From: an uncultured Bacilli bacterium | Lineage (GTDB): Bacteria; Bacillota_I; Bacilli_A; RF39; UBA660 | Assembly (NCBI GenBank): GCA_944371315.1 | Contig: CALVXN010000008.1 | Span: 1 to 33,367, forward strand | Length of the DNA: 33,367 bases | Direction of reading: 5' to 3' | In this document: positions 7,377-22,208 of the stretch, in pieces | Position numbering within the stretch: the stretch's first letter is position 1 | Layout of the letters: each line of letters opens with the position of its first letter | Notes under the pieces: generated by a model | Seen by the model: only the letters and a program-made list of their open reading frames with translations | Databases searched by the model: none | What the model was told of the DNA's origin: nothing | Made by a program: the position numbers and the translations under genes

Positions 7377-7793
7377 ATGAGGACTTTTTATGTTTTTAAA
7401 ATTAATAGAGAAATGACTTTACTAATGAAAGAATCTCCATATAATTTATTTAAATCTTTAGAAGGAATTTACTTGCTTGATAAAACAAGTGTTGGATATG
7501 GAAAAGATTTGTTAGACCAAATAATTACTCCAATAGATAAGATGAAATATAATAGATTAATATATGATAAAAATAAAGATAATGATTTTTATATGAAAAT
7601 TGGGGATAATCATAGAATTATAAATAAATATAGGAAAGAAGAAACAAATATTCAGATAAAAAATAGTCATATATTATTAAAAACTAATATAATAAATAAA
7701 AATATTCGTAAATATTTACCACTAAATGAATTATTTGCGTGTGATTTTGAAAATAAAGATTATTTTTGGTTAGAAGAATTAGTTAGATTATAA
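7377..7793 (+). CDS. sirA: SirA-like sporulation inhibitor of replication
   Basis: This 138-residue protein is matched to SirA (B. subtilis YneE, 148 residues) by position and pattern: it lies directly between tkt and yneF as in B. subtilis, starts RTFYVFKI like the aromatic SirA N-terminus, and ends with DFENKDYFWLEEL, resembling the DF-K-YGWL segment of SirA. In B. subtilis SirA binds domain I of DnaA and blocks new rounds of replication once sporulation starts, under Spo0A control. I see no convincing 0A box upstream. Middle part is diverged and rich in Asn, Lys and Ile. TGGTGA at 7367-7372 supports ATG 7377. Identification rests heavily on synteny. Confidence 0.78.
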   Translation: MRTFYVFKINREMTLLMKESPYNLFKSLEGIYLLDKTSVGYGKDLLDQIITPIDKMKYNRLIYDKNKDNDFYMKIGDNHRIINKYRKEETNIQIKNSHILLKTNIINKNIRKYLPLNELFACDFENKDYFWLEELVRL

Positions 7794-7845: not shown

Positions 7846-8058
7846 ATGGATTGGCAATTAATACTTTATTTATTTATAGGAATAATTATAGGGATAATTA
7901 TAGGATTTTTAATTACAAGAATGTTATTTAAAAAACAATTAGAAAAAAATCCACCAATAAACGAAAAAATGATTGAAGCTATGATGAGTAGTATGGGAAG
8001 AAAACCAAGTCAAAAACAAGTAAGACAAGTGATGCAACAAATGAACAGATTTAAATAA
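7846..8058 (+). CDS. yneF: YneF family (UPF0154) small membrane protein
   Basis: This 70-residue protein has one N-terminal transmembrane helix (about residues 4-26, rich in Ile and Gly, IGIIIGIIIGF) and a basic cytoplasmic tail. The tail contains the family pattern NPPINEKMIEAMMSSMGRKPSQKQV, split here across residues 37-60, followed by QVMQQMN. UPF0154 proteins of this size are universal in Bacilli; function is unknown, though B. subtilis yneF sits beside sirA as here. Start at ATG 7846 is chosen for AGGGAG at 7832-7837. The GTG at 7837 overlaps the ribosome site and is not a likely start. Confidence 0.93.
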   Translation: MDWQLILYLFIGIIIGIIIGFLITRMLFKKQLEKNPPINEKMIEAMMSSMGRKPSQKQVRQVMQQMNRFK

Positions 8059-11043: not shown

Positions 11044-13539
11044 ATGGAAAATATTTTAAAAAGAATTGAGAATTATTCCCTTGAAGAAATAATGGGGGAT
11101 AGGTTTGCAAAATATGCTAAAGAAATAATACAAGATAGAGCAATCCCTGATGTTCGAGATGGTTTAAAGCCAGTTCAAAGAAGAATTTTGTATGCAATGT
11201 ATAAAATGGGAAATACTTGGGATAAAGGTTATTTAAAATGTGCTACAACTGTTGGAGATGTTTTAGGTAAATACCATCCACATGGTGATACATCAGTATA
11301 TGATGCAATGGTTAGAATGTCACAATGGTGGAAACAAAGTAATATTTTAATAGATATTCATGGAAATAATGGTTCAATGGATGGAGATCCACCAGCAGCA
11401 TATCGTTATACTGAAGCAAGACTTGCTAAAATTAGTGGCGAGTTATTAAAAGATTTAGATAAAGAAACAGTTGCATGGGCACCAAATTTTGATGATAGAT
11501 TATTAGAACCCACTGTTTTACCTGCAAAATTTCCAAATTTACTCGTAAATGGTGCTAATGGTATATCAGCAGGTTATGCAACAAACATTCCTCCTCACAA
11601 TTTAGGTGAAATAATTGATGCAACTATAAAAAGAATTGATTCACCAAATTGTTATTTAGATACAATATTAGAAATAGTAAAAGGTCCTGATTTTCCAACT
11701 GGTGGTATTGCTGAAGGAAAAGATGGAATAATTGATGCATTTAAAACTGGTAGAGGAAAAGTAATAGTTCAATGTAAATATGAATTTAAAAAAGAAAAAG
11801 GAAAAAATCAAATAATTATAAGTGAAATACCATTTGATGTAAATAAATGGAATTTAGTAAGCAAAATAGAAAGTATTAGAATTGATAAAAAAATTGAAGG
11901 TATAGCAGAAGTTCGTGATGAAACTGATAGAGAAGGCCTAAGAATTGTAATTGATTTAAAAAGTGGAGCAAACAAAGAATTAATATTAAAGTATTTACTT
12001 AAAAATACAGAATTACAAATATCATACAATTACAATATGGTTGCTATAGTTAATAGAACACCAAAAACTCTAGGTTTAATAGAAATATTAGATGCATACA
12101 TTGCTCATCAAAAAGAAGTAATAATTAAAAGAACACAATTTGATTTAGCTTTTTATCAAAAAAATTATCATATAGTTACAGGCTTAATAAAAGCTATATC
12201 CATATTAGATGAAGTAATAAAAACTATAAGAAGTAGTAAAAATAAAGGAGATGCTAAAAATAATTTAGTAGATAAATATGGATTTACTTTTGAACAAGCA
12301 GAAGCAATAGTTACTTTGCAACTTTATAGATTAACTAATACAGATATTGTAACATTAGAAGAAGAATGTGAAAAATATCAAGAGTTAATAAAAGATTGCG
12401 AAGAAATATTAAATGATGAAAATAAACTTAAAAATGTAATGAAAAGTGAATTAAGAGAAGTAAAGAAAAACTATGCTACTCCTAGAAAAACAGAAATAAG
12501 AGATGAAATAACTGATATTAAAGTTGATATTAAAGAAATGATACCAAATGAAAAAGTAGTGGTTGTAGTTACAAATGATGGATATGTAAAAAGAGTAAGC
12601 TTTAAAAGTTATAATTCATCAACTGAAGAAACTGCATTAAAACCTGGTGATTTTGTTAAGGGTAAGTATTTTGTTACTACGTTAGATACTTTATTATTAT
12701 TTACAAATTTAGGAAATTATTTATATATTCCTATTCATAAACTAGCAGAATCTAAATGGAAGGAATTAGGAAAACATATAAGTAATACAGTAGTAATAAA
12801 AGAAAATGAAAAAATAATATCTAGTATGATTTTAAAAGATAAAGCTAAGAATGTAGTTATGTTTACTAAAAATGGATTGGTTAAGCAAGTGGCTTTGAAA
12901 GACTTTGAAGTTACAAGATATTCTAAACCAATGACATCAATTAAGCTTAAAGAAAATGATGAACTTATAAATGTAACAATAGCAAAAGAAGATGTATTAT
13001 TAATAACAAATAATGGTTTTTATCTTAAATTTAAAACTGCTGAAATTCCAATAGTAGGAGTTAAAGCTAGTGGAGTAAAAGGAATTAATTTAAAAGATGA
13101 CTATGTTATAAATGCTGGATCAATTATGGAAGAACACGAATATTTAAATATATTTACAAATTATAAAACTGGTAAGAGAATTAAATTAAATGAATTGACT
13201 ATTTCTAATAGAGCTAAAAAAGGTTCAATGTTATATAAGAAAGTTAAAACAAAAGATTATAAAGTAAGTTTTGCTTATTTAACTACAAGTAAAGATATTA
13301 ATATAATAAAATTGGATAATGATATAAGTGAATTAAAAAATAGTGAAATACCGATAATGGATTTAATTAGCACAGGAAGTCAAATAACTAAGAAAAATGT
13401 TGATGTATGGGCATTAAAACCAATAGAAGTAAACTTAATAAATAAAAGTGTAGAAATAGAAGAAGATAAAAAAGAAGAAAAGAAAGAAAACACCCAATTG
13501 TCTTTTGATACATTTAATATAGAAGATTTTAAAATATAG
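11044..13539 (+). CDS. parC: DNA topoisomerase IV subunit A
   Basis: This 831-residue DNA breakage-reunion subunit forms an A2B2 complex with ParE and decatenates sister chromosomes. The catalytic Tyr is Tyr122 in RYTEAR. ParC signature GNNGSMDGDPPAA precedes it, then LVNGANGISAGYATNIPPHNL and the IRSSKNKGDA coiled-coil gate region, as in Gram-positive ParC/GrlA. The drug-contact stretch reads HPHGDTSVYDAM, with Thr83 and Asp87 where Staphylococcus GrlA has Ser80 and Glu84. The usual Met before RYTEAR is Tyr here. The C-terminal beta-pinwheel domain (about residues 500-790) is present; the last 40 residues are a Lys/Glu-rich tail (IEEDKKEEKKE). It lies in an operon 18 bases after parE and ends at the strong hairpin at 13542. 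Confidence 0.96.
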   Translation: MENILKRIENYSLEEIMGDRFAKYAKEIIQDRAIPDVRDGLKPVQRRILYAMYKMGNTWDKGYLKCATTVGDVLGKYHPHGDTSVYDAMVRMSQWWKQSNILIDIHGNNGSMDGDPPAAYRYTEARLAKISGELLKDLDKETVAWAPNFDDRLLEPTVLPAKFPNLLVNGANGISAGYATNIPPHNLGEIIDATIKRIDSPNCYLDTILEIVKGPDFPTGGIAEGKDGIIDAFKTGRGKVIVQCKYEFKKEKGKNQIIISEIPFDVNKWNLVSKIESIRIDKKIEGIAEVRDETDREGLRIVIDLKSGANKELILKYLLKNTELQISYNYNMVAIVNRTPKTLGLIEILDAYIAHQKEVIIKRTQFDLAFYQKNYHIVTGLIKAISILDEVIKTIRSSKNKGDAKNNLVDKYGFTFEQAEAIVTLQLYRLTNTDIVTLEEECEKYQELIKDCEEILNDENKLKNVMKSELREVKKNYATPRKTEIRDEITDIKVDIKEMIPNEKVVVVVTNDGYVKRVSFKSYNSSTEETALKPGDFVKGKYFVTTLDTLLLFTNLGNYLYIPIHKLAESKWKELGKHISNTVVIKENEKIISSMILKDKAKNVVMFTKNGLVKQVALKDFEVTRYSKPMTSIKLKENDELINVTIAKEDVLLITNNGFYLKFKTAEIPIVGVKASGVKGINLKDDYVINAGSIMEEHEYLNIFTNYKTGKRIKLNELTISNRAKKGSMLYKKVKTKDYKVSFAYLTTSKDINIIKLDNDISELKNSEIPIMDLISTGSQITKKNVDVWALKPIEVNLINKSVEIEEDKKEEKKENTQLSFDTFNIEDFKI

Positions 13540-13541
13540 TA

Positions 13542-13584
13542 AAAATCACTTAATAAAATCATAAACTTTATTAGGTGATTTTTT
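13542..13584 (+). terminator. parC terminator that overlaps the ylbD ribosome site
   Basis: A 16-bp stem with one wobble (13542-13557 with 13567-13582, loop ATCATAAAC) ends in six Ts at 13579-13584. The 3' arm contains AGGTGA at 13573-13578, the only plausible ribosome site for the next gene at 13587. Any transcript reading through would therefore fold its own ribosome site into the stem. Confidence 0.88.
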
Positions 13585-13586
13585 AT

Positions 13587-13949
13587 ATGAAAAATGAAGA
13601 ATTTAAAAGATTTGTTAGAACAAAACCTGAATTAATAAAGTATGTTCAAAGTGGTGAAATGACATGGCAAAAATTTTATGAATTATATGATTTATATGGA
13701 GAAGATGAATCAGTATGGAATAAATATATACTAAATAATGATCGAAATATTAATGATAGTATAAGCAAAATTACAAATATGGTTAAAAGTGTAGATGTAG
13801 ATTCAATTAAAAGTCACATAAATACCGCTCAAAAGGCAATAGATTTTGTGCAAGATTTAACTAAAAAAACACCTCCATCAAATTTAGGCAATAATTTAAA
13901 TAAAGGACCAGTTTCACCAAGGCCTTTAAATAAATTTTTTGAGGATTAA
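13587..13949 (+). CDS. YlbD-like (putative spore coat family) protein
   Basis: This 120-residue protein has the YlbD-family pattern at the N-terminus: FKRFVRTKPELIKYVQSGEM, then TWQKFYELYDLYGEDESVW, matching the family's FVK-HP-LI--V--G--TWQ-LYE-WYL-GEDD layout. B. subtilis YlbD is annotated as a putative coat protein and is paired with ylbE as here. A second half with amphipathic helices (about 60-95) and a Pro/Asn-rich tail is less conserved. The start is ATG 13587 with AGGTGA at 13573-13578; the GTG at 13575 would lie inside that site. The gene shares the terminator stem of parC as its leader, and it overlaps ylbE by one base (TAATG), implying coupled translation. Role in the spore is by homology only. 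Confidence 0.82.
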   Translation: MKNEEFKRFVRTKPELIKYVQSGEMTWQKFYELYDLYGEDESVWNKYILNNDRNINDSISKITNMVKSVDVDSIKSHINTAQKAIDFVQDLTKKTPPSNLGNNLNKGPVSPRPLNKFFED

Positions 13950-14170
13950 TGGAAAAGTATTTACAAATGGCTTTTAGATCAAATGTTAAGGATTATAATC
14001 GTCTTAAAGAAAATTCATATTATATAAAAGACTTAAACAGAGGAATAATTGATTATAAAAATTTTGTAGAAAAAATGAAGCTTAAGTATAAAGAACGAGT
14101 AACAGATAAAATTAGTAATGTAATGGATAATATGGAAATGATTAATTCAGTTTTAAGTGTGTTAAAATAA
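13949..14170 (+). CDS. YlbE-like small protein
   Basis: This is a 73-residue, mostly helical protein. The pattern YYIKDLNRGIIDYKNF followed by YKERVTDKI and a hydrophobic C-terminal helix MEMINSVLSVL fits YlbE-like proteins (roughly 75-80 residues in Bacillus, where they have WYRKL-RNP and a KTIPDK-like segment). The neighbour is YlbD-like and the order ylbD-ylbE is as in B. subtilis. Start ATG overlaps the ylbD stop as TAATG. No catalytic residues, no membrane helix. Function unknown; linked by context to sporulation. Confidence 0.78.
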   Translation: MEKYLQMAFRSNVKDYNRLKENSYYIKDLNRGIIDYKNFVEKMKLKYKERVTDKISNVMDNMEMINSVLSVLK

Positions 14171-14181
14171 ATGATATAATA

Positions 14182-14210
14182 TTGACTAAATCTAAAAATT
14201 ATTGTAATAT
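14182..14210 (+). promoter_or_regulatory. Promoter of the pilin-like gene
   Basis: TTGACT at 14182-14187 and TAATAT at 14205-14210 are separated by 17 bases, 28 bases before the start codon at 14238. Confidence 0.72.
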
Positions 14211-14237
14211 TTAAACATAGAGAGGTGCATACAAAAA

Positions 14238-14762
14238 ATGAAAAATAATATGAAAGATTTAAGAGGGTTTACCTTAATAGAATTATTAGCGGTTATAGTA
14301 GTATTAGCAATAATCATGTTAATTGCAGTAAATGCAGTATTACCACAAATGGCAAAGGCCAGAAGATCATCATTTGCAATTGAAGCAAATGGAGCAATTG
14401 ATGCAGCTCAGTCATATTATATGAGTCAAAATTTAGTTGGTGGAAATGGGCTACCTACTACAGAGGGTGGGGTTGCATGTGTAACAATAAAACAATTATA
14501 CGATGCGGGTCAAACAGAATTAAATCCTGAAAACGGCTATGAAGGAAAAGTTGTTGTTAAAAAACAAGGAAACATATATCTTTATCGCGTATATTTGAAT
14601 AAATCTGATTCATTAATGATTGTAAATAAAGGAGTTTCTGGAGATGGAACTGCTGAAAAACCATACAATAACTATGATATAACAGAAGCTCATGTTGAAG
14701 ATTATGATTCTAGTGTTGATGCTAAATTGAGTTGTAAAAATGATGGTTCAGATTGGGAATAA
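14238..14762 (+). CDS. Type IV pilin-like (prepilin N-terminal motif) protein
   Basis: This 174-residue protein has a textbook class III signal: short basic leader MKNNMKDLRG, cleavage after Gly10, then FTLIELLAVIVVLAIIMLIAV with Phe at +1 and Glu at +5. These mark substrates of prepilin peptidase, as in type IV pilins, type II pseudopilins and ComG proteins. The globular part (about 45-174) has two Cys (in GGVACVTI near 77 and SCKND near 167) that could form a disulfide, and ends in a Gly/Asp-rich segment. No peptidase, ATPase or platform gene is nearby, so its machinery must be elsewhere. AGAGGTG at 14220 supports the ATG. It has its own promoter and terminator. Could be a competence pseudopilin or a surface pilin; undecided. 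Confidence 0.87.
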   Translation: MKNNMKDLRGFTLIELLAVIVVLAIIMLIAVNAVLPQMAKARRSSFAIEANGAIDAAQSYYMSQNLVGGNGLPTTEGGVACVTIKQLYDAGQTELNPENGYEGKVVVKKQGNIYLYRVYLNKSDSLMIVNKGVSGDGTAEKPYNNYDITEAHVEDYDSSVDAKLSCKNDGSDWE

Positions 14763-14843: not shown

Positions 14844-15725
14844 ATGATTATAGGATCACATGTTAATTTTGGTAGTGAGCAATTATTAGGCTCTGCTAAA
14901 CAAGCTGTAAGTTTTGGAGCAAATACATTTATGTTTTATACTGGTGCTCCTCAAAATACAATTAGAAAAGATATAAAAGATGATTTAACTGATGAAGCAA
15001 TAAAATATATGAAAGAAAATAACATTGATATTAATAATGTAATATGTCATGCACCATATATTATTAATTTAGCAAATAAAGAAAAAGAGGATTCTTGGAA
15101 TTTTTCAATTAGTTTTTTGAAGAATGAAATAAATAGAATTACAAAAATGGGGATTAATTATATAGTAGTGCATCCTGGCAATGCATTAAAAATTGATAGA
15201 ATGGAAGCATTAAATAATATTGCAGAAGCTATCAATAATATAATTACCACAGAAACAATGCCAATGATACTTTTAGAAACTATGGCTGGAAAAGGGACAG
15301 AATGTGGAATAAATATATATGAAATAAATGAAATATTAAATAAAGTTAATTTAAAAGAAAAAGTTGGAGTATGTTTAGATACTTGTCATTTAAATGATTC
15401 TGGAATAGATATATCAAAGTTTGATGAATATTTAAATGAATTTGATGAAAAAATAGGAATTGAAAAAATAAAATGTGTTCATGTAAATGATAGTAAAAAT
15501 GAAATTGGAACACATAAAGATAGACATGCAAATTTAGGTTATGGAACAATAGGATTTGAAAACTTAATTAATGTTATTTATAATGCAAGATTAAAAAATG
15601 TTCCTAAAATATTAGAAACACCTTGGATTGGAGAATATCCTCCATATAAAATAGAAATAGATATGATAAAAAGTAAAAAATTTAATCCTAATTTAGAAGA
15701 AGAGGTAAATAAGTTATATGAATGA
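14844..15725 (+). CDS. nfo: Endonuclease IV (AP endonuclease)
   Basis: This 293-residue zinc-dependent AP endonuclease cleaves DNA 5' of abasic sites in base-excision repair. All nine metal ligands of the E. coli Nfo fold can be placed: His69 (CHAPY), His110 (VVHPG), Glu145 (LLETMAG), Asp179 and His182 (LDTCHL), His213 (VHVNDS), Asp226 and His228 (KDRHAN), Glu258 (LETPW). Length is near the usual 280-300. GGTGA at 14833 precedes ATG 14844. The stop codon is TGA, the only TGA terminator I find among intact genes here, and the last 12 bases overlap the convergent gene. In B. subtilis nfo (yqfS) neighbours yqfT, a DUF2624 gene, as appears to be the case here. Confidence 0.96.
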   Translation: MIIGSHVNFGSEQLLGSAKQAVSFGANTFMFYTGAPQNTIRKDIKDDLTDEAIKYMKENNIDINNVICHAPYIINLANKEKEDSWNFSISFLKNEINRITKMGINYIVVHPGNALKIDRMEALNNIAEAINNIITTETMPMILLETMAGKGTECGINIYEINEILNKVNLKEKVGVCLDTCHLNDSGIDISKFDEYLNEFDEKIGIEKIKCVHVNDSKNEIGTHKDRHANLGYGTIGFENLINVIYNARLKNVPKILETPWIGEYPPYKIEIDMIKSKKFNPNLEEEVNKLYE

Positions 15726-15974
15726 TTTAAATTTTTGATAATATTCATCAAAAATTTTTTTAACTTTGTAAAAATTTTCTTCACTAAATTGGTTTTTATA
15801 ACGATTTATATCAAATACATTAGGATTTTTTAAAATGTCTTGCCAATTTTTCTTTAAAAATTCATAAGTAAAATTTAACTCATTTTCTGATAAAAACACA
15901 TTTTTTTTAATGGCAAAATTGTTAACATCTTCTTTTTTTAACATACTCATATATCTTTCAATTATATTATACAT
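15714..15974 (-). CDS. DUF2624 (YqfT-like) small protein
   Basis: This is an 86-residue helical protein with no catalytic motif or membrane helix. It resembles the DUF2624/YqfT pattern: NIIERYMSMLKKEDVNNFA at the start (a helix followed by a phrase like LTPEELI-YGK in Bacillus), then two helices separated by NVFDINRYK. The nfo (yqfS) neighbour supports it, since yqfT adjoins nfo in B. subtilis. The start is ATG at 15974 because AGGTG lies at 15985-15981 on this strand; the GTG at 15983 is inside it. It converges on nfo with a 12-base overlap and diverges from the PBP gene by only 17 bases, so its promoter lies inside that gene's first codons. B. subtilis YqfT is of unknown function. Confidence 0.7.
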   Translation of the reverse strand: MYNIIERYMSMLKKEDVNNFAIKKNVFLSENELNFTYEFLKKNWQDILKNPNVFDINRYKNQFSEENFYKVKKIFDEYYQKFKSFI

Positions 15975-15990
15975 GCATATCACCTAATAT

Positions 15991-16020
15991 ATTGTATGAA
16001 TTAGTCTTAAAAAACAATAC
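15991..16020 (-). promoter_or_regulatory. Candidate sigma-E-like promoter of the DUF2624 gene
   Basis: On the minus strand CATACAAT (15998 to 15991) matches the consensus -10 of sporulation sigma-E, preceded after 14 bases by GTATTGTT (16020 to 16013), a 6 of 8 match to its -35. A sigma-A reading (TACAAT with TTGTTT at 15 bases) is also possible. It lies inside the start of the divergent PBP gene. Confidence 0.4.
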
Positions 16021-20449: not shown

Positions 20450-21385
20450 TTATTTTTCTGCAAAACTTAACGTATCATTACTATCAGGATAATTAAATAA
20501 AACTTCCTCAATGCCGTAACTATCACGCATGGATAAAGCAATTGAATATTTTACCTCTTCAAGCATTTCTTTATCATTAATATTAGCAATTAAATAATTA
20601 TCAAATGAAAGAGAAATGCTATTTTCGAGTAGTTCATAATTTGACAAATTAGTTGATGCAGCAAGATAACTAATTAAATTGGTATGATATATAGGAGTAG
20701 ATTTTAACTCTTTAATTATAATTTCGGCTTTTTCTATATTTTCATTAGAAACTTTTGTGACAGGAACATAATAGTAATAATCATTGTATTTGCTTAGATA
20801 ATATATAGTAGTTTTACTGGTATCTTTTATAGAATCTAGATTATATATTTTATTAATTCCATAATTTTTATCAAAATAAGTAGGTAATTTTTGATTAGAA
20901 TTTGGTAATTTAGATAAAATCTCTCCTTCAACAAGAATACAAATTTTTTTAATTTCCGATAACTCAGTTAAAGAATAAATAATAGCTTCAAGCATTTTTT
21001 TTTCATTGTCCTTATTAACATTTAATAATTCCTTGCTAAAATTAATAGTTAATATTTCATTTTCTAATTTTAAATCTAAAACTTTGGTATTACTTGGAAT
21101 AATTGCTTTAAAGCCTTCCCTAACATAACTAGATTTTTTACTATCTATTGTGAGAGATTCAATAATTTCTTTTATTAAATCTGTAGTATTTTCGCTTTCC
21201 TTAATTATAGAAGTTCTTGCGATATATTCCATGCTATCTAATAAAAAGATTGGCATTTCATCTTTAGAAATATAAGATAAGGATTCTTTTATTGGGGTAG
21301 TAGTAGGGAAAAAATAAATAATTAGCAAAATAAATAATGCTAAAGTAGCAATCATAATTCTTCTTAAAGAAGCTTTTTTAATCAT
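20450..21385 (-). CDS. gerM: GerM-like protein with two GerMN domains
   Basis: This is a 311-residue protein with an N-terminal membrane helix (about residues 10-28) and two GerMN (sporulation and spore germination) repeats, roughly 85-160 and 195-300. Both contain the strand-helix pattern with L-V-FS-EL or ISLSFDN. In B. subtilis GerM is made in the mother cell, lies between the spore membranes and is needed for engulfment-complex function and germination. The Bacillus protein is a lipoprotein; here no Cys follows the helix, so it is helix-anchored instead. gerE is directly upstream on the same strand, as in B. subtilis where gerE and gerM lie a few genes apart. The gerE terminator separates them, so a separate promoter is implied. 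Confidence 0.85.
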   Translation of the reverse strand: MIKKASLRRIMIATLALFILLIIYFFPTTTPIKESLSYISKDEMPIFLLDSMEYIARTSIIKESENTTDLIKEIIESLTIDSKKSSYVREGFKAIIPSNTKVLDLKLENEILTINFSKELLNVNKDNEKKMLEAIIYSLTELSEIKKICILVEGEILSKLPNSNQKLPTYFDKNYGINKIYNLDSIKDTSKTTIYYLSKYNDYYYYVPVTKVSNENIEKAEIIIKELKSTPIYHTNLISYLAASTNLSNYELLENSISLSFDNYLIANINDKEMLEEVKYSIALSMRDSYGIEEVLFNYPDSNDTLSFAEK

Positions 21386-21418
21386 AATATAACCTCAATT
21401 AAATTATATTTTTAATAT

Positions 21419-21440
21419 AAAAAAAAAGACCGAAGTCTTT
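21419..21440 (-). terminator. gerE terminator with TTCG tetraloop
   Basis: On the minus strand AAAGAC and GTCTTT pair with a TTCG loop (21440 to 21425), followed by a long T-run. It lies immediately after the gerE stop codon. Confidence 0.9.
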
Positions 21441-21441
21441 A

Positions 21442-21648
21442 TTAAATTACTATTTCTCCAAGCTTTATTAGTTCAACAACTGCTTGAGCGCGACCTTTTA
21501 CTCCTAATTTTTGAATAGCATTAGAAATATGATTGCGAACAGTTTTTTCACTAATATCTAATAAATTAGCTATTTCTTCGGTAGTTTTATTCAATACTAA
21601 TAAATTAAAAACTTCTTGTTCTCTATCAGTTAATATTTTTTTCTTCAT
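21442..21648 (-). CDS. gerE: GerE, LuxR-type late sporulation regulator
   Basis: This is a 68-residue stand-alone LuxR-type helix-turn-helix, close in length and sequence to B. subtilis GerE (74 residues): LTDREQEVFNLLV, then NKTTEEIANLLDISEKTV with the recognition helix RNHISNAIQKLGVKGRAQAVVEL. No receiver domain. In B. subtilis GerE is a mother-cell DNA-binding protein that activates and represses late coat genes with sigma-K. AAAGGA precedes ATG 21648. Upstream is a CATAAAATA box in the sigma-K arrangement. The gene is followed by its own strong terminator and then gerM. Presence of gerE strongly implies a full coat programme. Confidence 0.96.
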   Translation of the reverse strand: MKKKILTDREQEVFNLLVLNKTTEEIANLLDISEKTVRNHISNAIQKLGVKGRAQAVVELIKLGEIVI

Positions 21649-21673
21649 AATAATTCCTTTCTCAAATAAAATA

Positions 21674-21709
21674 ACTTCATAATATTTTATGAAGTATTTT
21701 TTTTAAAGT
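21674..21709 (-). promoter_or_regulatory. Candidate sigma-K promoter of gerE, inside an inverted repeat
   Basis: On the minus strand AC (21709-21708), a 16-base spacer, then CATAAAATA (21691 to 21683) matches the AC-N16-CATAnnnTA pattern of sigma-K. The box lies in an inverted repeat ACTTCATAA/TTATGAAGT (21674-21695). That repeat could also serve as a terminator after spoIIIAH or as a protein-binding site. Confidence 0.5.
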
Positions 21710-21722
21710 GAATTATTTTTAT

Positions 21723-22208
21723 CTATTCAAATTTAACGGTTATATATTTTTGAGTATCGTATAACTCTTGAACAGCTCTAATTATTTTATTGGCAATTTC
21801 TTTGCTATGATCCTCACTAGCGATAATTATACTAATTGAATCTCCGTCAATTTTGACAAAATTATCATATTTAAATTGAGAGTTAATTAATTTTTCAATT
21901 TTTTCAGATTCACCTTGTTTATTATTTAAAGCTTGTAGTGCATTATAAGCATCGTTTTTTTCTTCAATTGTAGCTGAATCATCTAATAAAATATTTTGGT
22001 ATTGATTCATTTGTTCTAATACAGCTTCATCATCTTCAACTTGTAATGCTACAATCACATCTGATTCTTTTACTTCCAAGACTTCACTGACGTCATTATT
22101 TCCCGCTAGAACTTTAACAGTTTCATCTCCCATACTTACATAATAAATTCCTAATACTAAAATCAAAGAAAATAAAGTTATAAACCACAAATTTTGTTTA
22201 TTTATCAT
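21723..22208 (-). CDS. spoIIIAH: SpoIIIAH-like sporulation protein
   Basis: This 161-residue protein has the SpoIIIAH layout: basic start MINKQNLW, one helix (about 8-25), a Glu/Asp-rich linker with coiled-coil, then a C-terminal alpha/beta domain (about 105-161) of the ring-forming type (FVKIDGDSISIIIA, then IANKIIRAVQELY). In B. subtilis SpoIIIAH is the mother-cell half of the channel with forespore SpoIIQ and is the last of the eight-gene spoIIIA operon. Here it stands alone, with gerE downstream and ezrA diverging upstream; AA to AG are not in the window. GGAGGA before ATG 22208 is a good ribosome site. A CATATATT (22241 to 22234, minus strand) is a weak sigma-E-like -10. Confidence 0.85.
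   Translation of the reverse strand: MINKQNLWFITLFSLILVLGIYYVSMGDETVKVLAGNNDVSEVLEVKESDVIVALQVEDDEAVLEQMNQYQNILLDDSATIEEKNDAYNALQALNNKQGESEKIEKLINSQFKYDNFVKIDGDSISIIIASEDHSKEIANKIIRAVQELYDTQKYITVKFE

Follow-up and report, generated by a model that had tools for sequence, protein, structure and literature searches.

Gene Organization at the parC-ylbD Junction

The window, which is the whole stretch of 33,367 nt of DNA analysed here, contains a parE-parC pair, in which ParE and ParC domains were found with Pfam, followed by ylbD and a short open reading frame (ORF) on the same strand. The upstream gene parC (11044..13539, +) is an ORF coding for topoisomerase IV subunit A (Pfam DNA_topoisoIV, 1.9e-155), and its stop codon TAG lies at 13537-13539 (+). 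The ylbD gene (13587..13949, +), with its ATG start codon at 13587-13589 (+), codes for a putative spore coat protein of 120 aa (Pfam YlbD_coat, 7.3e-20). A 73-aa ORF (13949..14170, +), named ylbE in the initial annotation, overlaps the final base of the ylbD stop codon and showed no match in Pfam or NCBIfam. YlbD has been listed with coat genes occurring mainly in Bacilli (PMC3533761, partial text), and ylbD is unnamed in the main text, supplement tables aside, of a paper on the mother-cell programme of B. subtilis (PMC517825, partial text). Elsewhere in the window, a GerM-like (Germane) gene and a SpoIIIAH-like gene adjoin at 20453-22208 (-), and 7377-7790 (+) shows a sub-threshold match to SirA, which inhibits replication at sporulation (E 0.0011, 19.8 of 26 bits).

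The gap between parC and ylbD is 47 nt, and it holds a hairpin that starts 1 base past the parC stop and ends 3 bases 5' of the ylbD ATG. RNAfold of 13530-13610 gave 17 contiguous pairs between a 5' arm (13541..13557, +) and a 3' arm (13567..13583, +), closed by a loop of 9 nt (13558..13566, +). The minimum free energy was -17.1, compared with a mean of -6.04 (sd 2.19) for shuffled sequences (z = -5.05), and none of the 200 shuffles was as good. The stem is AU-rich, with two G-C pairs and one G-U pair. The Shine-Dalgarno (SD) sequence of ylbD, AGGTGA (13573..13578, +), is located 8 nt 5' of the ATG and inside the 3' arm, as the initial annotation had recognized for a stem that it put at 16 pairs rather than 17. 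The T6 run at 13579..13584 (+) serves both as the U-tract of the terminator-like hairpin and as the spacer between SD and ATG.

A stable stem followed by T6 has the make-up of an intrinsic terminator, which is consistent with the earlier proposal that parC transcription would end here. The hairpin differs from intrinsic terminators in having two G-C pairs and a 9-nt loop and in using the SD of the next gene as its 3' arm. It was unlisted in a terminator scan that asked for a minimum of 3 G-C pairs with a 3-8 nt loop, which is the rule of that scan and not a universal one; because its two G-C pairs and 9-nt loop caused it to be missed, we call it terminator-like. No known riboswitch or RNA family was matched at the gathering score, as the two Rfam matches in 12900-14300 were well below it (the best was Spd-sr07, with 24.8 of 55 bits and E 0.41).

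Conservation and Covariation of the Hairpin

Of 59 near genomes, 40 had a YlbD match, and so did 159 of the 193 genomes sampled from the family. The first set comprised 117 ylbD upstreams, 27 from the genus (window included) and 90 from other genera, the latter drawn from 156 matches by similarity rank, plus L030, with one skipped; G218 was left out of the 60 fetched upstreams, as its gene sits at a contig start. From a subsequent scan of genome contigs, 80 loci were retained, mainly from uncultured Bacilli and five of them from goat gut samples. The held-out set consists of the 46 of these loci whose upstream was not identical to earlier ones and lay far enough from a contig end. These 46 upstreams form 31 groups at no more than 6 differences in 60, and none is within 6/60 differences of a first-set locus in the same register. 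A hairpin was called strict when it had at most one mismatch, net 10 pairs and a covered SD (40/117 upstreams), while a strong rule was passed by 50/117; the first, loose rule (79/117) was dropped because it admitted weak structures.

An SD-hiding helix under the strict rule was found in 40 of the 117 upstreams, compared with 50 of 2320 when the sequence 5' of the SD was shuffled. It is frequent in the genus (23/27) and occurs in 17 of the 90 upstreams outside it. Thus, the stem is conserved among close relatives, and the absence of such conservation had been named beforehand as evidence against the reading of the initial annotation. The compensatory changes that the initial annotation had proposed to look for were also observed. 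Across the genus, which has 23 distinct arm pairs, native arms paired at a mean of 13.13 of 14 positions and swapped arms at 11.89, with none of 5000 permutations as high, the native registers having been picked for best pairing. When the register was re-optimised, the swapped mean was 11.96, and 11.9% of single swaps reached the native mean. Outside the genus, 19 loci (18 distinct) gave 12.83 for native and 11.56 for swapped arms (0/5000), these loci having been chosen partly by eye from 24 strong ones with L076, L086, L107, L113, and L128 omitted; all 24 gave 12.30/14 native, 10.83 swapped and 11.32 swapped after re-optimisation. The covariation tests, like the Fisher tests below, take related genomes as independent. 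Mapped on a tree of YlbD from 57 loci, the presence of the hairpin (labelled partly by hand) requires 9 changes, 3 of them forced by well-supported branches.

A Mother-Cell-Type -10 Box in the Loop

The hairpin loop holds CATAAACT (13560..13567, +), which by sequence comparison is a putative -10 box of the mother-cell sigma type (sigmaE/sigmaK); all of it lies in the loop except the last T, with which the 3' arm begins. In 97 of the 117 upstreams, CATA (with the 8-mer) is found 4, 5 or 6 nt 5' of the SD, and 102 have it at any accepted place. Of the 15 upstreams without CATA, 13 have a different base followed by ATANN(N)T at the same place. The held-out set agrees, since CATANNNT lies 3-7 nt 5' of the SD in 45 of 46 upstreams. 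The box is therefore commoner than the strict hairpin (97 vs 40 of 117). It is also kept where the hairpin is missing, in 55 of the 66 upstreams outside the genus without a strong hairpin. These upstreams give the profile CATATAAT-N5-TAGGTG, aligned on CATA, in which the informative letters are only the TAAT after CATA and the TAGGTG five bases on. The sigmaK promoter -10 of C. difficile is printed as CATATAAT, and the sigmaE and sigmaK boxes of this species are said to be very like those of B. subtilis (PMC3789822, partial text). The CATA-type -10 at ylbD resembles these promoters, and the box of the window deviates from CATATAAT at two places.

The -35 element is less informative. The window has a weak -35-like heptamer, GTAAAAA (13539..13545, +), 14 nt 5' of the -10 box and degenerate compared with the exact GGATAAA found at this place in 13 of the 27 upstreams of the genus; the poorer GTAAAAA is found in two of the 27, the window and L002. 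In C. difficile the -10 boxes of sigmaE and sigmaK are much alike, and the -35 elements differ, with ATA for sigmaE and AC for sigmaK (PMC3789822, partial text). At ylbD the weak -35 does not distinguish the two factors, and we infer that either may be the one used. A sigma-70-type promoter for ylbD was rejected, as no such site with 9 of 12 matches was listed on the + strand of 13308-13658.

The initial annotation had considered a promoter in the loop or 3' arm hard to fit, and this view is probably wrong given the recurrence of the box. It had also named a promoter that starts inside the hairpin and removes the 5' arm as the finding that would speak against it. The comparison of relatives supports such a promoter, with its start placed from the -10 position. 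In the genus CATA was present in 27/27 upstreams, and in the held-out set in 21/22 with the hairpin and 24/24 without. Outside the genus it was less well kept in hairpin-bearing relatives, being found in 15/24 with a strong hairpin vs 55/66 without (P 0.047), and in 9/17 vs 61/73 under the strict rule (P 0.019). The usual change, judged by eye, was C to A in CATA. This difference weighs against the merged arrangement proposed below and suggests that the box and the hairpin may trade off in some relatives.

Sporulation Sigma Factors and Similar Boxes in the Genome

The genome encodes sigE-, sigG-, sigK-, and sigF-like factors. A sigma-70 region 2 model matched ten places, eight of them above the cut-off, and NCBIfam typing of four sigma genes gave SigE, SigG, SigK, and SigB/F/G as the best families. 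None of the four reached an equivalog cut-off: the SigE-like factor scored 322 bits against 339, the SigG-like factor 348.7 against 372, and the SigK-like factor 298.5 against 298.65, with 313.6 bits against the SigK subfamily cut-off of 252. The SigK subfamily cut-off was passed by both the SigE-like and SigK-like factors. The fourth factor, with SigB/F/G as its best match, scored 145.8 bits against a cut-off of 234, which was passed by the SigG-like factor.

Boxes similar to that of ylbD precede other sporulation genes. The upstream of spoIVA carries TCATAAA-N14-CATACCAT, that of spoIID carries CATATATT followed by GAGG, and that of sigK carries CATATTAT. A sample covering 494,655 of the 1,085,115 bases contained 504 gene starts from a simple call; at 16 of them, CATANNNT was found 3-7 nt before an SD-like triplet or longer, compared with 5.25 in shuffles. 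Seven of these 16 genes belong to sporulation families in Pfam (CotE, YabG, BofA, GerQ, CotJB, YabP, and YlbD), two more code for an M23 protein and for a LysM protein with a sub-threshold SpoVID-N match, and the other seven are without a sporulation family. Since the box is near the SD at several sporulation genes, transcripts of mother-cell genes in this genome seem usually to start at the SD. An 86-aa ORF of the window without a Pfam match (15714-15998, -) has CATACAAT, a mother-cell-type box, 5 nt 5' of AGGTG.

The presence of YlbD was also compared with that of spoIVA. In the 12 class-sample genomes outside the family that were searched for both, spoIVA was found in 4/4 with YlbD (G037, G039, G042, and G045) and in 0/8 without. 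Within the genus, G003 and G016 have YlbD and no spoIVA match. For spoIIIAA, considered as an extra sigmaE control, the NCBIfam model found no match in this genome.

Predicted Exposure of the Ribosome Site and Proposed Mechanism

From the position of the -10 box, the ylbD transcription start is predicted at 13570..13574 (+). The predicted leader is 13-17 nt long with the SD at its 5' end, very short since the start would fall at the SD, which sets it apart from usual sigmaE/sigmaK promoters, as does the weak -35 of the window. The 5' arm, which overlaps the -35-like stretch and the spacer of the promoter, would be absent from this RNA. The two kinds of RNA differ strongly in the folding model. 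For all six SD bases, the probability of being unpaired in the read-through fold is at most 0.002, in agreement with the earlier claim that read-through RNA would hide the site. In RNA from 13572-13573, the first four SD bases are predicted to be 0.87-0.97 unpaired. The corresponding values for RNA from 13569 or 13571 are just 0.57-0.70, and in the short predicted RNAs the last two SD bases are mostly paired (0.05-0.24 unpaired). An alternative start at 13547, inside the 5' arm and placed from a TATAGT close to the stop codon of parC, was rejected because it would leave the SD closed (0.01-0.13 unpaired). As a start at 13570-13574 omits the 5' arm, the native ylbD RNA would have an open SD, and neither a switch nor the unfolding event that the initial annotation had named, beside an internal start, as a route to ylbD expression would be necessary.

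It is probable, in our judgement, that a terminator-like hairpin, a sporulation promoter and a lock on read-through RNA are merged in these 47 nt. The AU-rich stem and T6 would act as an intrinsic-type terminator of parE-parC. The 5' arm would span the upstream half of a mother-cell promoter of ylbD with CATAAACT in the loop, and the start, 3-7 nt 3' of the -10 box, would fall about where the SD begins. The SD would double as the G-rich segment of the 3' arm. In growing cells, parC RNA would stop at the hairpin, and any RNA reading through would fold the SD away so that no coat protein is made. During sporulation, polymerase with sigmaE or sigmaK would initiate inside the hairpin and produce an RNA without the 5' arm, in which the SD is free.

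Other SD-Hiding Stems in the Genome

A stem scan of the 504 starts with a loose rule gave 30 hits, and the top four long stems belong to a hisS-like gene (L203), a 79-aa gene (L202), sigG (L068), and ylbD. At sigG (L068 6133-6200, -; G000:C14), the SD AAAGGA lies in a stem of 14 pairs followed by a T run, and the stem-loop has a possible forespore -10, its sigma class judged by eye only. The strict stem was found in 6 of the 19 sigG loci with a start found (22 relatives, L207-L228). The 79-aa gene (L202 15650-15955; G000:C9) codes for a tyrosine/proline-rich coat-like protein without a Pfam match; its SD lies in a strong stem, and CATACATT covers the end of the 5' arm together with the loop. 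Its strict stem was found in 10 of the 15 loci with a start found (of 18, L229-L246), a count that leaves out a nineteenth, weak locus. At the hisS-like gene, so named by eye (L203, -, ATG at 7895), the SD pairs with a T-rich upstream stretch, with 21 pairs in total. Because sigG and the 79-aa gene came to light only afterwards, the enrichment of sporulation genes among SD-hiding stems is a lead and not a test.

Link to parC and Alternative Explanations

The hairpin goes together with an adjacent parC. Outside the genus, the strict hairpin was found in 15/27 parC-adjacent upstreams vs 2/63 others (Fisher P 3.7e-8). The held-out set, in which parC was called by a rough pattern (as for 60 first-set loci) that may have missed L308 and L300, gave 20/36 parC-adjacent vs 2/10, which is not significant (P 0.074). 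A run of at least four T before the start was found in 38 of the 40 strict hairpins and in 10 of the 77 other upstreams. In addition, several parC-adjacent loci without the merged hairpin (L030, L033, L034, L040, L043, L046, and L114) seem by eye to carry a separate terminator-like stem 5' of the -10 box.

These three observations are also what simple economy of space would produce. With little room in the gap, the parC terminator would borrow the SD of the next gene as its G-rich arm; the promoter would be real, and the hiding of the SD would be a by-product without selection. We regard this explanation as possible, though it is not the one that we favour. Two of the 40 strict hairpins, L020 and L026, are without a run of four T, which speaks against it. 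Moreover, SD-hiding stems also occur at sigG and the coat-like gene of this genome, and the large hairpin at sigG of B. subtilis has been proposed to block translation of read-through RNA (PMC5942855, partial text).

The switch suggested by the initial annotation, in which ylbD is expressed as part of parE-parC transcripts once the hairpin has been opened by a signal, an RNA or a protein, is unlikely. The full pairing of the SD in the read-through fold would suit it, and so would the drift of the promoter box from CATA in some hairpin-bearing relatives. Against it, the loop contains a conserved promoter box, and upstreams of ylbD genes that are not preceded by parC keep this box but mostly lack the hairpin, which occurs in two of 63. 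The lack of an Rfam family at gathering score also argues against it. Still less probable is translational coupling, in which the ribosome ending parC would cover the 5' arm and so open the SD: the geometry suits it, with the parC stop at 13537-13539 and the 5' arm from 13541, but 63 of the 90 outside-genus upstreams have no nearby parC and yet retain the SD and mostly the box, and the -10 box would be left unexplained.

Relation to Known Systems and Biological Meaning

The principle of a lock on read-through RNA is already known. In phage T4, late genes and homing endonucleases (I-TevI, segB, soc, and e) have a ribosome-binding site that is hidden only on the long early or middle transcripts, and the late promoter of I-TevI is sited so that the late RNA has too little sequence for the structure (PMC2988022, partial text). 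In B. subtilis, read-through RNA from PspoIIG is predicted to be kept from translation by the large hairpin of sigG (spoIIIG), a structure that RNA from PsigG is unable to form (PMC5942855, partial text). The ylbD arrangement is predicted to be like that of the T4 late genes in having the SD within a stem on the long transcript. In contrast to T4, ylbD is a cellular sporulation gene with a putative mother-cell sigma promoter, and its hairpin also resembles the terminator of a housekeeping gene. In B. subtilis a sporulation operon lies upstream of sigG and the hairpin is 20 or more pairs long, whereas at ylbD the upstream genes are parE-parC, the putative -10 box is in the loop and the SD is in the terminator-like arm. 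Among the literature titles and abstract openings listed, mostly outside subscription papers, we found no report of read-through control of ylbD, nor of a terminator that has the SD of the next gene as an arm and a promoter in its loop. Thus, the fused form appears without a report in that material.

A broader reading, to which we give close to an even chance, is that several sporulation genes of this uncultured Bacilli family share a compact promoter-in-loop hairpin that insulates spore genes at both translation and transcription. In such a device the 5' arm would lie across the promoter spacer, the sporulation -10 box in or beside the loop, the SD in the 3' arm, and a T run would form the spacer to the start codon. 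Translation would be possible only from the sporulation transcript, and the device would be fused with the terminator of the upstream gene where space is short.

If the proposed mechanism is true, 47 nt of a small, AT-rich genome would be enough for a terminator, a developmental promoter and a ribosome site combined, with a spore gene still kept silent beside a housekeeping operon. The ylbD locus seems to follow the same logic as the T4 late genes and B. subtilis sigG, and the relatives with and without the hairpin would provide a ready natural experiment.
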